NCBI GenBank assembly: GCA_001557505.1
Contig: LSAX01000001.1
Span: 930,001 to 994,000 of the forward strand
Reading direction: 5' to 3'
Origin: Reticulascus tulasneorum
Lineage: Eukaryota > Ascomycota > Sordariomycetes > Glomerellales > Reticulascaceae
DNA: 64,000 nucleotides
The position numbers and the translations under genes are program-made. The notes below the pieces were generated by a model. That model had not been told where the DNA came from, searched no databases, and worked only from the letters and a program-made list of their open reading frames with translations. Of this stretch, positions 39,238 to 44,600 are shown one piece after another. Position 1 is the first letter of the stretch; each line of letters starts with the position of its first letter.

Positions 39238-39624
39238 GGACGGTACAAGGGGAATCATAACTATGGCCAGTCTGTATAATTAGAATTGATTAGGGCTTGA
39301 ATCTCAGATGCCTCACTACATAGATCATCCCTGGTCAGAAATACCACTTTGACGATTATTGTACATGGTCCTCACTGCACCAAGACCAATGCTTCACAAT
39401 GACCTCGCTTATTGCATGTAGGAGTAAATTTAATTATGGAATACGTGGGGTTGACCCCACCTTCATTCGACCTGGAATCTTCCAGCCCGACAGTCGACTT
39501 TCCTTGACCGAGACATCCTGAACCGTTCAGGACAGCTAAACACGCGGCAAACACAGATTGACTTGACCATTCTACGTACCAGTTAGATATTCCGTGTTGC
39601 AGGATCCCAGATAACGTCGTGAAA
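39238..39624. other. Short intergenic region before SGT2
   Basis: Holds the 3' end of the RING-CH gene and the promoter and leader of SGT2. No other gene seen. Confidence 0.5.
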
Positions 39625-40870
39625 ATGGTAAGGATTGGACCAAAGTTGCTCTCCGGCACTCCATATCTCTATCGGCCAGAGCCAGCCTTGCTAACATTGT
39701 ACACGCAATACAGGCTACAACATCCAAGCAGCGCCTCGCGCTCGCAATCTGCGACTTCCTCTCCACATCCCTCACGGACGGTACGCTCCCAGCCGACGAC
39801 AAAGACTCCATCGACGTAGCTATAAACTGCATCGCCGAGTCCTTCAAGGTCGACCCCAGCGACACCAAGGCCGTCTCCGAAGCAGTCGGCACTCAGAACC
39901 TGCTACAGGTCTACTCCGTGTACGAGAAGCTCAAGAACGCTTCCAAGACGGCGACCGGATCGTCTGCCACCTCGGGACTGCCGACTGAGGCCCAGAAGAA
40001 GGAAGCGGAGACACTAAAGTCTCGCGGCAATGCCGCCATGGCCACGAAGGACTACCCCTCCGCCATCGACTTGTACACACAGGCCCTCGCCTTGAACCCA
40101 GGCAACGCCGTTTTCTTGAGCAACCGTGCGGCCGCGCACAGCGCTGCCAAGGACCACGAGTCTGCCAAGGCCGACGCCGAAGCCGCTGTCGCCATCGACC
40201 CAGCATATACCAAGGCCTGGTCACGGCTTGGACTCGCTCGCTTCGCACTTGGCGACGCAAAGGGGGCAATGGAGGCTTACGGCAAGGGCATTGAGTACGA
40301 GGGCAACGGCGGCAGCGAGGCCATGAAGAAGGGATTCGAGACAGCGAGGCGCCGCGTTGAGGAGAGCGAGGTCGAGGAGACGGACTTGCCACGTGGCTCC
40401 CCTGGTCTCGGCGGAGGTGCAGGTGGCATGCCTGACCTCGGAAGCTTGGCTAGCATGCTAGGTGGAGGCGGCGGCGGCGGCGGCGCTGGTGGGATGCCGG
40501 ATTTCAGCCAGATCATGAACAACCCCATGTTTGCGTCGATGGCCCAGAATCTGATGAGCAACCCGGACCTGATGGGCAACCTAATGAGTAACCCGCGGCT
40601 GAGAGAGATGGCAAACCAGTTTGGAGGCGGCGGTGCCCCTGGTGGTGCTCCAGGTGGCGGCGGTGGCATGCCCGACTTGCAGAGCTTGATGTCGGATCCG
40701 AGCATCGCGGAGATGTGAGTATCATCCCATCCTCTTCCACTTATCCGCAAGGGCCAGCTGCTTACCAACACAAACTTAGGGCACGATCAATGATGGGCGG
40801 TGGCGCTCCCGGTGGACCCCCTGGAGCAGGTCGAGGAGCAGGAGGACCTCCTGGCTCGGGCGGTCAATGA
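39625..40870 (+). CDS. SGT2: SGT2/SGTA-like TPR co-chaperone
   Basis: Three coding exons: 39625-39627 (only the ATG), 39714-40714 and 40780-40870; introns of 86 and 65 nt. The product is 364 aa. The N-terminal 70 residues match the SGTA dimerisation domain (KQRLALAICDFLSTSL...DSIDVAINCIAESF), which binds Get4-Get5. Three TPR repeats lie at about residues 100-185 (SRGNAAMATKDYPSAIDLYTQ, SNRAAAHSAAKDHESA, KAWSRLGLARFALGDAKGAM) and bind Hsp70/Hsp90 tails. The Gly/Met/Asn-rich C-terminus, with MNNPMFASMAQNLMSNPDLM, binds hydrophobic tail anchors. It acts in the cytosol in the GET pathway, handing tail-anchored proteins to Get3. A first coding exon of just ATG is easy to miss; I chose it because the frame runs cleanly from it. 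Confidence 0.94.
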
Positions 40871-41679
40871 TCGTGGTGGCATGAGATGAGGAAGTGCCGT
40901 AGAGTGATGGCAGGGAATGTCTCATTACAATTTATTATACGCGCTGCGCTTGGACTGGAACTGCAACATAGATATATGCACATGGCTGATGAAACACTGA
41001 CGTTCAAAATAGACAGCGAGTTACCCAGGACATGACTTGTTCACTAGTTGACGCCAACGATTGATGTTAAAGCCAGAAGCAAAAGATTTGATTATTCGGA
41101 GGAGACTCTATCATACGGTGTACCTTTGTGTCCCAAACCAGAGCAACATATCTATCGTGACGTGCCAATAAAGCCAATAGCAATGCAAGTAGGTCATGGG
41201 TTGTGTACAAGTTTTAAACCACAGCCCCCACGGAAATAGAAATTTTTGATCTGGAACCACGCCATACAATGCCCCGTCTACTCATATAGAACATACCATC
41301 TAATAAAAAGAAAAGCTTCGAAAGGGTGCAGAGGAAATCTACTTTTTGGAACAACATGGGGAAACTCCAGACGCCGACGGGAGTGCCGTCTCCGTACAAA
41401 TGCCTGCAGACCAAAAGCGCAGAAATAGTCATTATGTGGTCTTGGCCACGTTCGTTGAGACTTCTTCATGATTTTGCGAAGAGGATGTGGTGCCGGAGGA
41501 CTGAAAGACAAAATTATCGTATGGCTTAGAGACGAAACAAACGGCTAGCGAGAAAGGTTTGGTGGGGAGACAGGAGTGCCGCATTTTGGGTGATCGAGAT
41601 TGTTGGCTAATGAAGTATCACCAGATCCACTGGGGTTGGCGTGTCGACCGCCAACCTTACGGTTTCGATAGTGACCCCT
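40871..41679. other. 3' flanks of convergent SGT2 and ABC transporter genes
   Basis: The part next to 41680 remains open in the transporter frame from 41679 to a stop at 41545-41547 and may be a further exon. The rest shows no gene. Confidence 0.5.
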
Positions 41680-44600
41680 CTAAGGCTTGCCTCGAGAAGC
41701 GCGATTCTGGATTGGTTGGTGTGGTTTAGCCACAGATCCTGTAGGATTGTTCTGTGGCTTGTTCTCATTAACAGACTCGGAGGAAGATTTCGGGACAGCA
41801 GCTACAGGAGTGGGAATGTGTGACGGCGGATTTACAGAGTTTGAGGTGCGCAAGGTCTTACTCGGCTGGTTGGCGGCAGACGAAGCAGAGGTGTTGGATC
41901 GGGGTTCTGGAGCAGTTGGAGGTGCTGGCGCGTTGTCCGAGGAAGTCTTCGTCACAGGAGCAGAAACACGACGTGATGACTGGCAGGTCATTAGCGAAGA
42001 TCCTCCTTGAGAGACCCTCACAAACCGATTGCTTACAAGATTGCTTTCAGCCGGGGCTTCCTCTATCTCTTCATACTCGGTATCCGCCGTGTCATAATCT
42101 CCCGAGGAAGTTGTGGATGGTTCACTCTTTGAATTAACTCGACGAGAATACCGAGGATACTTCAAGGTGGTGGCTGGAAGATTCACCACTTGATCCCGGG
42201 ACTCGTCCTCCGCAAGCCCCACACTGTCACTGCTGTCGGGCTGGGGTCCGACCCGGAATGGGGTTGGACTAGCCCATTCAACTGTCTTCTGCGACCCGTC
42301 CTCCGGCATATCCGCTGAGTCTGACCCTACTTGATGCTGGTTTGTCACCAGACGGTTTGGCGCTGCCAAGGATCGAGGGGTAAACTCTTGGGCCACAGGA
42401 TTCAGCTTGGATCCCTACAATCAAAGATCAGAATCAGCCAAAGAAGCCGTGGATTCTTCAACAGACTCTACCTCTTTCTTGTGCCCCGACGGAGTTTTAG
42501 CCCCCTGACCCTCTTGAGCTGGCGTGGGTTTGGACGCGGTCTTGCCATTTTCATTCGGCGGCGCTGCTGTCTCGGTTTTGGCGAGCTCGCTCTTCGTCTG
42601 CGTCGGTGTGAGATCATTGATGAGGGTCGTTTTCTGCACGGTCATCGCAGCCATTTTCTGATCAGCGTCCTTGGGCTTGACAAAGGTCTGCTTCGACCAA
42701 AGATCTGCATATCGACCATTTGCGACGATGAGCTCACTGTGGCTACCCTGCTCAATGACCTCTCCGTTCTCAACAACGACGATTCGATCGGCGTTCATAA
42801 TCGTCGACAAGCGGTGCCTGGATGTCTATCAGCAATGCGATGCAACATTCTTTGCGGTCAATAAACTTACGCAACGATGAAAGTGGTCCGGCCCTTGCAA
42901 AGTCGAAGAAAAGACTCCTGGATCTTCTGCTCGGTATCGGTGTCGACGGAGCTGGTGGCCTCATCCAATAGAACAATGTCGGGCTGCTTCAGAATTGCTC
43001 GGGCAATTGCGACTCGCTGCAATTCACCACCCGAAAGTTTACTGCAAAAATGTTAGCTTCTTTCTCAATTCGAGACCGTGGACAACACTTACATTCCTCT
43101 CTCTCCAACTCGAGTATTGTATTCTGGTTCAAGTTAGCTACCAACCTTGAAGAGGTTTGATATGATGCCTTACTATCAGTAAAACCCATGATCTTATCAT
43201 GGATACATGCAGCTTTACAAGCTTCCCAAACTTCTTCGTCTGAAGCAGTGATTTTTGCGTATCTGACATTGTTCAAGATTGTGTCGTCAAAGAGGATCGG
43301 GTTTTGCGGGACAAGGCCGATCCTGTCTCGAAGGCTGGGAAAGTGTAAGCAATTGTTAGATCTGTTACGATGGCATCGACCAACCTGGAGAGATCGACAT
43401 CCCGGACATCTTGTCCGTCAATACGAATCGAGCCATCCGTCACATCGTAGAAACGATTCAGCAGCTTTAGCAGCGTGGACTTCCCGGCACCAGTAGCACC
43501 GACAAAGGCCACGGTCTGACCTCCTGGCACGGACAAGTCGATCTTCTTTATGATTCCCTTCTTGTTGTCGTAGCTGAAGGAAACCCCTTCAAAGTCGACA
43601 TCCCCCGACACAAACTTGATCGGCCTCGCCCCCTTTTTATTGACGATGGTAGGCTTTTGCTTCATAATGTCCAGAATTCTTTCGGCATCGACGAGATCGC
43701 TGCTCAATTTCTTGCCGAGGCTTGCCATAAATCGGAGCGGCGAAGTAAGCTGAGCCCAATACATCAGGAGCATGGTGAGATCACCCGGCGTCGCCTTGCC
43801 GCTCCTGATTCGAAAGACAGCTAGAAATGCGCCTGCCAACAACCCGCACAAGAGGACCAGAGACTGAATTGCGTTGGCGCCGAGCCAAGTAAAGCGAATA
43901 CCTTGAGACAAGGAGACGCGAGTATGTACGGCTGTTGCATATCGGTTGTCTTCGTATCCAGTCTGGTTGAAAGATGCAACTGTATGCCATCCTTGAACGC
44001 CCGTCTGGCGAACGTAATACTCGGAGTATACGGCGTTTACATGGCGCCGTCGAGCTTCTTTCATGCCAGATATCATCCTGGAAGCCGTGTATAGGAACAA
44101 TATGCCCGTTGCGATGGTGATCAAACCTTCATAGGACCCGAAGGTCAGGGAGAGGTAAACCACGGCGACGACGAGATCGATCAACATGGGAAGTGCCTGG
44201 AAGCATACCGACTCTAATATGTCCGAGATGCTCTGGCCGCCATACAAGGCCATTATGATATCGGAGGTGCTCTTCGAGTCGTGAAAGTCCGCGGACAGAT
44301 GTAAGATGTGAGAATACGCCGCAGTACTGAGCGCCTCATCCGTATAGAACTCGATTGGCATATATAGCCACTGCCGCAAGAAGTCAATACCGCTTTCGGA
44401 GGCGGCAACACGAAGAACACCATAAACAATGACGCCAATCCAAGCGCCATTGAAATCCCGGTCCTTCAAATCATCTACTACAAGACCAAACTGACGAGGA
44501 ATAAGCAGATTGAGGGCGTTGCGAGCAAGGAGGCATAATCCGACAAGCACGAGGCGTAATTGAAGGGACTTGCGGCCGACAGGCCAAAAGTATGGGAAGA

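Follow-up and report, generated by a model that had tools for sequence, protein, structure and literature searches.

The question raised by a 64,000-nucleotide (nt) stretch of Reticulascus tulasneorum DNA (contig LSAX01000001.1, positions 930,001 to 994,000; hereafter the window) is why an ATP-binding cassette (ABC) transporter should end in a tail that opens with PAM2, the peptide motif recognized by the MLLE domain of the poly(A)-binding protein Pab1. A preliminary description of the window had proposed that an HMT1-like ABC transporter carries such a motif behind its last intron. PAM2 in an HMT1-type transporter is now strongly supported by deep conservation and by a matching Pab1 MLLE domain in the genome. 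The gene may encode a membrane pump that also holds messenger RNAs.

Transporter gene and PAM2 motif

A gene model derived from splice sites and the reading frame comprised seven exons on the minus strand (45461–41680; Table 1) and encoded a protein of 1152 residues. Pfam matched ABC_membrane (residues 284–555, 80 bits) and ABC_tran (residues 618–766, 114 bits) in one copy each, and the product is therefore assigned as a half-transporter, in sequence of the HMT1/ABCB6 type. Its nearest relatives (among the best 120 of 260 matches) came from Colletotrichum, where they are annotated as 'heavy metal tolerance protein' or 'ABC transporter', with 63–65% identity over residues 1–620. Structural comparisons were performed with the Colletotrichum musicola orthologue (P0001), to which the remaining Colletotrichum members of alignment A1 (43 of the 131 relatives described below, hand-picked among long models for diversity) are 77–82% identical; by this measure the source of the window is close to Colletotrichum but probably lies outside it. 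In a PDB sequence search with P0001 (best 60 of 151 matches), human ABCB6 was the best half-transporter (E about 1e-126); above it, at the head of the list, stood full-size ABCB proteins, both halves of which matched. Fold comparison ranked ABCB6 first, with Atm1-type exporters close behind. Five long helices were predicted ahead of the transmembrane domain (TMD) of P0001, and 805 columns could be matched to ABCB6 chain 7d7n_A; MTABC_N, the Pfam profile of the five-helix membrane region, matched 1 of the 43 members of A1. Vacuolar or endolysosomal location and transport of metal complexes can be ascribed to the protein by homology to Schizosaccharomyces pombe Hmt1, which is vacuolar and transports cadmium complexes (PMC2848647).

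The PAM2 consensus is xxLNxxAxEFxP (PMC9249222), and the start of exon 7 (42414–41680) matches it at every fixed position, L-N-x-x-A-x-E-F-x-P. The Pfam PAM2 profile scored 23.7 bits in a six-frame search of the genome (best of two candidates scored) and 21.0 bits on the isolated tail, with a cut-off of 20; the six-frame search at the default E-value of 0.001 listed no match. In 200,000 shuffles of the tail the strict motif arose 0 times and the relaxed form L[ND]xxAxxFxP 28 times, and the strict motif would be expected by chance about 0.17 times in an assumed proteome of 6 million residues. In the AlphaFold model of P0001 (mean score 64.3), the predicted local distance difference test score was below 50 across the whole tail (residues 825–1133, with PAM2 at 891), as a linear motif that lies apart from folded domains should show. 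Also considered as PAM2 carriers were the closest two half-transporter paralogues of the genome (35% identity, C3:1503042; 31% identity, C34:1303609), and their ends gave no PAM2-like match on either strand.

Table 1. Positions in the window of the transporter gene and the elements of its tail
Feature	Position	Strand	Basis or remark
HMT1/ABCB6-type half ABC transporter gene (assigned)	exons 45461-44667, 44604-43385, 43334-43174, 43123-43093, 43041-42871, 42817-42472, 42414-41680	-	splice sites, frame, Pfam
Last intron, 57 nt, phase 0, donor GAG/GTAGAG, acceptor TTGTAG	42415..42471	-	reading frame; 16 residues and TGA if retained
PAM2 motif, residues 912-921	42376..42405	-	directly past last intron; Pfam, consensus match, conservation
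Second conserved island, residues 995-1007 (SRRVxSKSEP pattern)	42118..42156	-	tail alignment, pattern count
Third conserved island RRVSAP, residues 1056-1061 (RRxSAP)	41956..41973	-	tail alignment, pattern count
RG-rich end, begins NRASRGKP	41683..41706	-	precedes stop codon 41682-41680
44 more in-frame codons past TAG (RGHYRNRKVGGRH...)	41548..41679	-	align with RG-rich end of Colletotrichum orthologues

On the plus strand, the neighbouring gene at 39615–40870 may encode an Sgt2-type tetratricopeptide repeat co-chaperone.

Conservation of the tail in fungal relatives

The relatives numbered 131, consisting of the best 120 of 260 matches (7997 candidates scored) and all 11 sequences of a second search, which a length filter limited to proteins over about 1219 residues and which supplied the five sequences outside Sordariomycetes. 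Beyond that class, sampling is sparse and favours long models, and several relatives are metagenome entries. By genus we take the named relatives to be Sordariomycetes, except for those five sequences from four other classes; Eurotiomycetes, Dothideomycetes and basidiomycetes were not recognized among the named relatives listed. A search for relatives with the tail only (E 0.001) found nothing, and the tail had no match among solved structures.

Past the ATPase domain, 78 of the 131 relatives carry L[ND]PxAxxFxP, with the consensus glutamate kept in 38 of these 78. This canonical form was found in Colletotrichum, Fusarium, Trichoderma, Metarhizium, Ophiocordyceps, Neurospora and Sordaria, as well as in Podospora, Chaetomium, Sporothrix, Pestalotiopsis, Pyricularia and Zalerion, and the relatives place it at the same position as the window protein. 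Four further relatives from three other classes, Candelina and Candelaria (Candelariomycetes), Xylona (Xylonomycetes) and Wetmoreana (Lecanoromycetes), have a variant, [FW][RK]P[DE]AP[DE]F[IV]P. This variant may be PAM2-like, a reading helped by a 1985-codon open frame in the genome of R. tulasneorum that groups SKLNVEAPEFKF, SRINAAAPAFSP and PKFRPDAPAFTP close together. With the variant included, the motif is present in 82 of the 131 relatives, and in 78 of the 81 retrieved models in which the stretch from DEATS/DEATA to the C terminus measures 210 residues or more. The remaining relatives comprise 37 short models, nine fragments and three long models with neither form of the motif. The motif is kept in HMT1 orthologues, which answers the objection, foreseen in the preliminary description, that orthologues might not conserve it.

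The degree of conservation was determined from an alignment of 81 of the 132 sequences (80 relatives and the window protein), from which P0131 was excluded along with sequences whose stretch from DEATS/DEATA to the C terminus is shorter than 210 residues. PAM2 columns carried 2.3–4.5 bits, with one wobble position at 1.6 bits, level with the DEATS columns of the ATPase core (3.2–4.3 bits); most tail columns carried 0.3–1.7 bits. A tryptophan at residue 955 is also conserved. Judged by simple patterns, the second island is present in 42 and the third in 27 of the 81 long tails, and both persist in Stromatinia, whose model has no PAM2, as well as in Candelina and Candelaria, which have the variant. 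The RRVSAP island presumably resembles a site for protein kinase A or 14-3-3 proteins. An end rich in arginine-glycine (RG) or RR pairs, defined as a final 45 residues that hold at least three pairs of the RG, GR or RR type, was found in 51 of the 81 long tails (for example, Fusarium RGGRRGRSPWYRGRRGRG). With regard to the in-frame TAG at 41682–41680 of the window gene, either the RG-rich end has been lost in this lineage or the stop is read through. Ahead of the last intron lies another conserved segment, in the linker (residues 859–871, 42583–42621, minus strand), which is VNDLSxExTxxEL-like in many orthologues.

The last intron and the forms of the tail

The preliminary description had placed an intron between the ABC domain and the tail that starts with PAM2, and had noted that its retention would end translation just ahead of the acceptor. 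Both statements are borne out by the sequence, in which only 6 nt of the intron remain after the TGA. Of the six introns, this one has the donor with the lowest match to the U1 consensus (5/9 positions, compared to 6–8/9 for the other five). Among the 37 short models of relatives, 21 end exactly in EV, 14 run a few residues past EV and two (P0047 and P0086) end otherwise. A phase-0 GT donor reads as V; therefore, the intron position looks conserved and the EV models appear to read into the intron. Of the 14 short models that extend beyond V, 13 have D or E directly after it, which implies donors of the form GTNGAN. Three kinds of model bear the name Fusarium oxysporum: short (P0048), with PAM2 (P0063) and long but skipping PAM2 (P0054). 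In P0054 the downstream junction omits 42 residues including PAM2, together with 10 residues at the third island (RRxxxP), and the rest of the tail is kept; P0039 (Fusarium sp.) shows the same pattern.

That splicing decides whether the motif is made, as first proposed, can be upheld in part. The conserved junction, the 35 of 37 short models that end at or just past it, the two Fusarium skips and the weak donor are suggestive of a switch, although the whole pattern could also result from introns overlooked during annotation. A stronger version, in which retention of the last intron is regulated so that a short transporter lacking PAM2 is made beside a long, PAM2-bearing one, would account for the clean short end encoded by the retained intron in the window, for the abundance of short models (37 of 131 relatives) and their ends at or past E-V, for the three F. 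oxysporum forms and for the weak window donor with its GTNGAN counterparts. We nevertheless regard regulated retention as rather doubtful: gene finders that miss an intron produce just such short models, weak donors would skew the annotated sample toward them, the retained peptide varies between groups, and P0047 and P0086 end elsewhere.

A Pab1 partner and the role of the tail

To bind as a PAM2, the motif would need an MLLE domain, and the Pfam MLLE profile identified one gene in the genome (among the best candidates scored), Pab1 (C32:1737923), with an intact KITGMLLE and with two adjacent pieces read as two exons. Other MLLE partners, such as a UBR5-like ligase or Rrm4, were considered and none was detected among the candidates scored. 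Two further PAM2 motifs were assigned by position: LNPNSHEFRP, about 1.4 kb past the LsmAD match of ataxin-2, to ataxin-2, and LNVDSPSFTP, about 1.6 kb ahead of the Pan3 kinase match, to Pan3. With these two motifs, one with the glutamate and one without it, beside the Pab1 MLLE domain, the organism therefore seems to have a standard Pab1–PAM2 system into which the transporter motif fits. The 1985-codon frame mentioned above (C25:2357293, L002 229-3039) has its three PAM2-like motifs within about 100 residues and would encode a multi-PAM2 protein, possibly a counterpart of Upa2.

The explanation we favor, and consider reasonably probable, is that the spliced form displays a Pab1-binding or messenger ribonucleoprotein (mRNP)-binding tail on the endolysosomal membrane. 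Like S. pombe Hmt1, which is vacuolar (PMC2848647), the transporter would reside in a vacuolar or endolysosomal membrane; its ATPase domain and tail would lie in the cytosol, and the long disordered tail of the spliced form would serve as a docking strip. PAM2, its first element, would bind Pab1, in which alone an MLLE domain was detected, through that domain and would gather Pab1-coated mRNAs, or Pab1 itself, at the membrane that bears the transporter. The RG-rich end present in many relatives could contribute direct RNA contact, phosphorylation of the RRxSAP and SKSEP sites could tune docking, and retention of the last intron could be used to produce a tailless transporter. By such docking the transporter could anchor mRNPs or couple metal export to translation, as the preliminary description suggested.

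Several observations weigh against this explanation. The consensus glutamate is missing in 40 of the 78 canonical relatives, 17 relatives have LNPVAATFTP, and the Pfam PAM2 profile, even with the threshold relaxed to E 0.1, matched just 27 of the 43 A1 sequences and scored 18.7 bits on the whole window protein, under the curated cut-off of 20. The model of the sole leotiomycete, Stromatinia (P0128), lacks PAM2 yet keeps both other islands. The window protein has one RG, GR or RR pair at its end, where the RG-rich sequence is cut by the in-frame TAG. In Ustilago, Upa1 has a PAM2 whose affinity for Pab1 is only 14.6 μM (PMC9249222) and which is dispensable for Upa1 function (PMC4466420); a conserved PAM2 need not be an essential anchor. 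PAM2 is also short, which together with the missing glutamates could indicate a chance resemblance or a ligand other than MLLE. We consider that combined alternative highly improbable, given the shuffling result, conservation on a par with the ATPase core and the fact that the only MLLE domain detected is that of Pab1; chance resemblance in itself was rejected on the basis of the shuffles, the level of conservation and the presence of the motif across relatives.

If Pab1 is the ligand, docking may serve ends other than mRNP anchoring. Pab1 docking could serve the transporter itself, with Pab1 on the transporter's own mRNA keeping the polysome close to the membrane or to the nascent protein for local translation or feedback and with no general mRNP anchor involved. 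The same motif anatomy would permit this, and the known PAM2 affinities of 0.2–40 μM (PMC9249222) would suit such a local, high-concentration setting. Self-docking is nonetheless unlikely in our estimation, as the tail is synthesized last, after every membrane domain, and PAM2 is kept with two islands and often an RG-rich end, which is more than self-docking obviously needs. Even less likely is a role resembling that of ataxin-2 but bound to a membrane, in which the tail would, under metal stress, attach Pab1 condensates or stress granules to the vacuole, to be stored or degraded there. Granule proteins combine PAM2 with RG-rich disordered sequence, and the motif assigned to ataxin-2 of this genome, GGKLNPNSHEFRP, is close to that of the transporter; granule docking is, however, deduced from composition only.

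Display of a Pab1-binding tail by the spliced transporter thus remains our preferred explanation. In its broadest and much more tentative extension, which we think may well not hold, a vacuolar metal transporter would double as an mRNP anchor across much of the filamentous ascomycetes: the tail would hold Pab1-bound mRNAs through PAM2 and RNA through the RG end on the vacuole or endosome, and phosphorylation and last-intron splicing would set the share of transporter that bears the anchor, coupling metal sequestration to local translation. A deeply conserved PAM2 on an integral membrane transporter, in an often RG-ended tail, would connect an endolysosomal transporter physically and directly to the translation machinery, and it offers a ready test of mRNA placement on ascomycete vacuoles and endosomes. 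PAM2 and HMT1 are each known; their combination in a conserved, often RG-ended tail is, to our knowledge, new. A literature search whose scope excluded most subscription papers and the list of 14 Ustilago maydis PAM2 candidates in PMC4466420 found no paper joining PAM2 with an ABC transporter, HMT1 or ABCB6, and otherwise listed other PAM2 proteins or unrelated subjects, in agreement with the preliminary description, which knew of no such case in an ABC transporter.

Compared to known systems, the window protein shares with S. pombe Hmt1 and human ABCB6 one TMD, one ATPase domain and perhaps extra N-terminal membrane helices, and one ABCB6 chain among the top fold matches carries Cd-phytochelatin. 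The ABCB6 match stops at residue 829–831 of the C. musicola orthologue, and nothing in the ABCB6 chains that matched corresponds to the PAM2 tail of about 300 residues. PAM2 is best known from soluble or peripheral proteins of RNA metabolism (PMC12852828). Ataxin-2/Pbp1 and Pan3 have the same class of motif and are such RNA-metabolism proteins, whereas the window protein is a predicted transporter. No MLLE protein of the Rrm4 type known from Ustilago was detected among the best candidates scored in this genome, and therefore the Ustilago route may not operate here. Upa1 and Upa2, which act in endosomal mRNA transport in U. maydis, are likewise membrane-associated and present a PAM2 to the Pab1 MLLE domain (PMC4466420, PMC9249222 and PMC12852828); these are endosome-associated adaptors or scaffolds, whereas the PAM2 of the window is instead carried by a putative integral membrane transporter.
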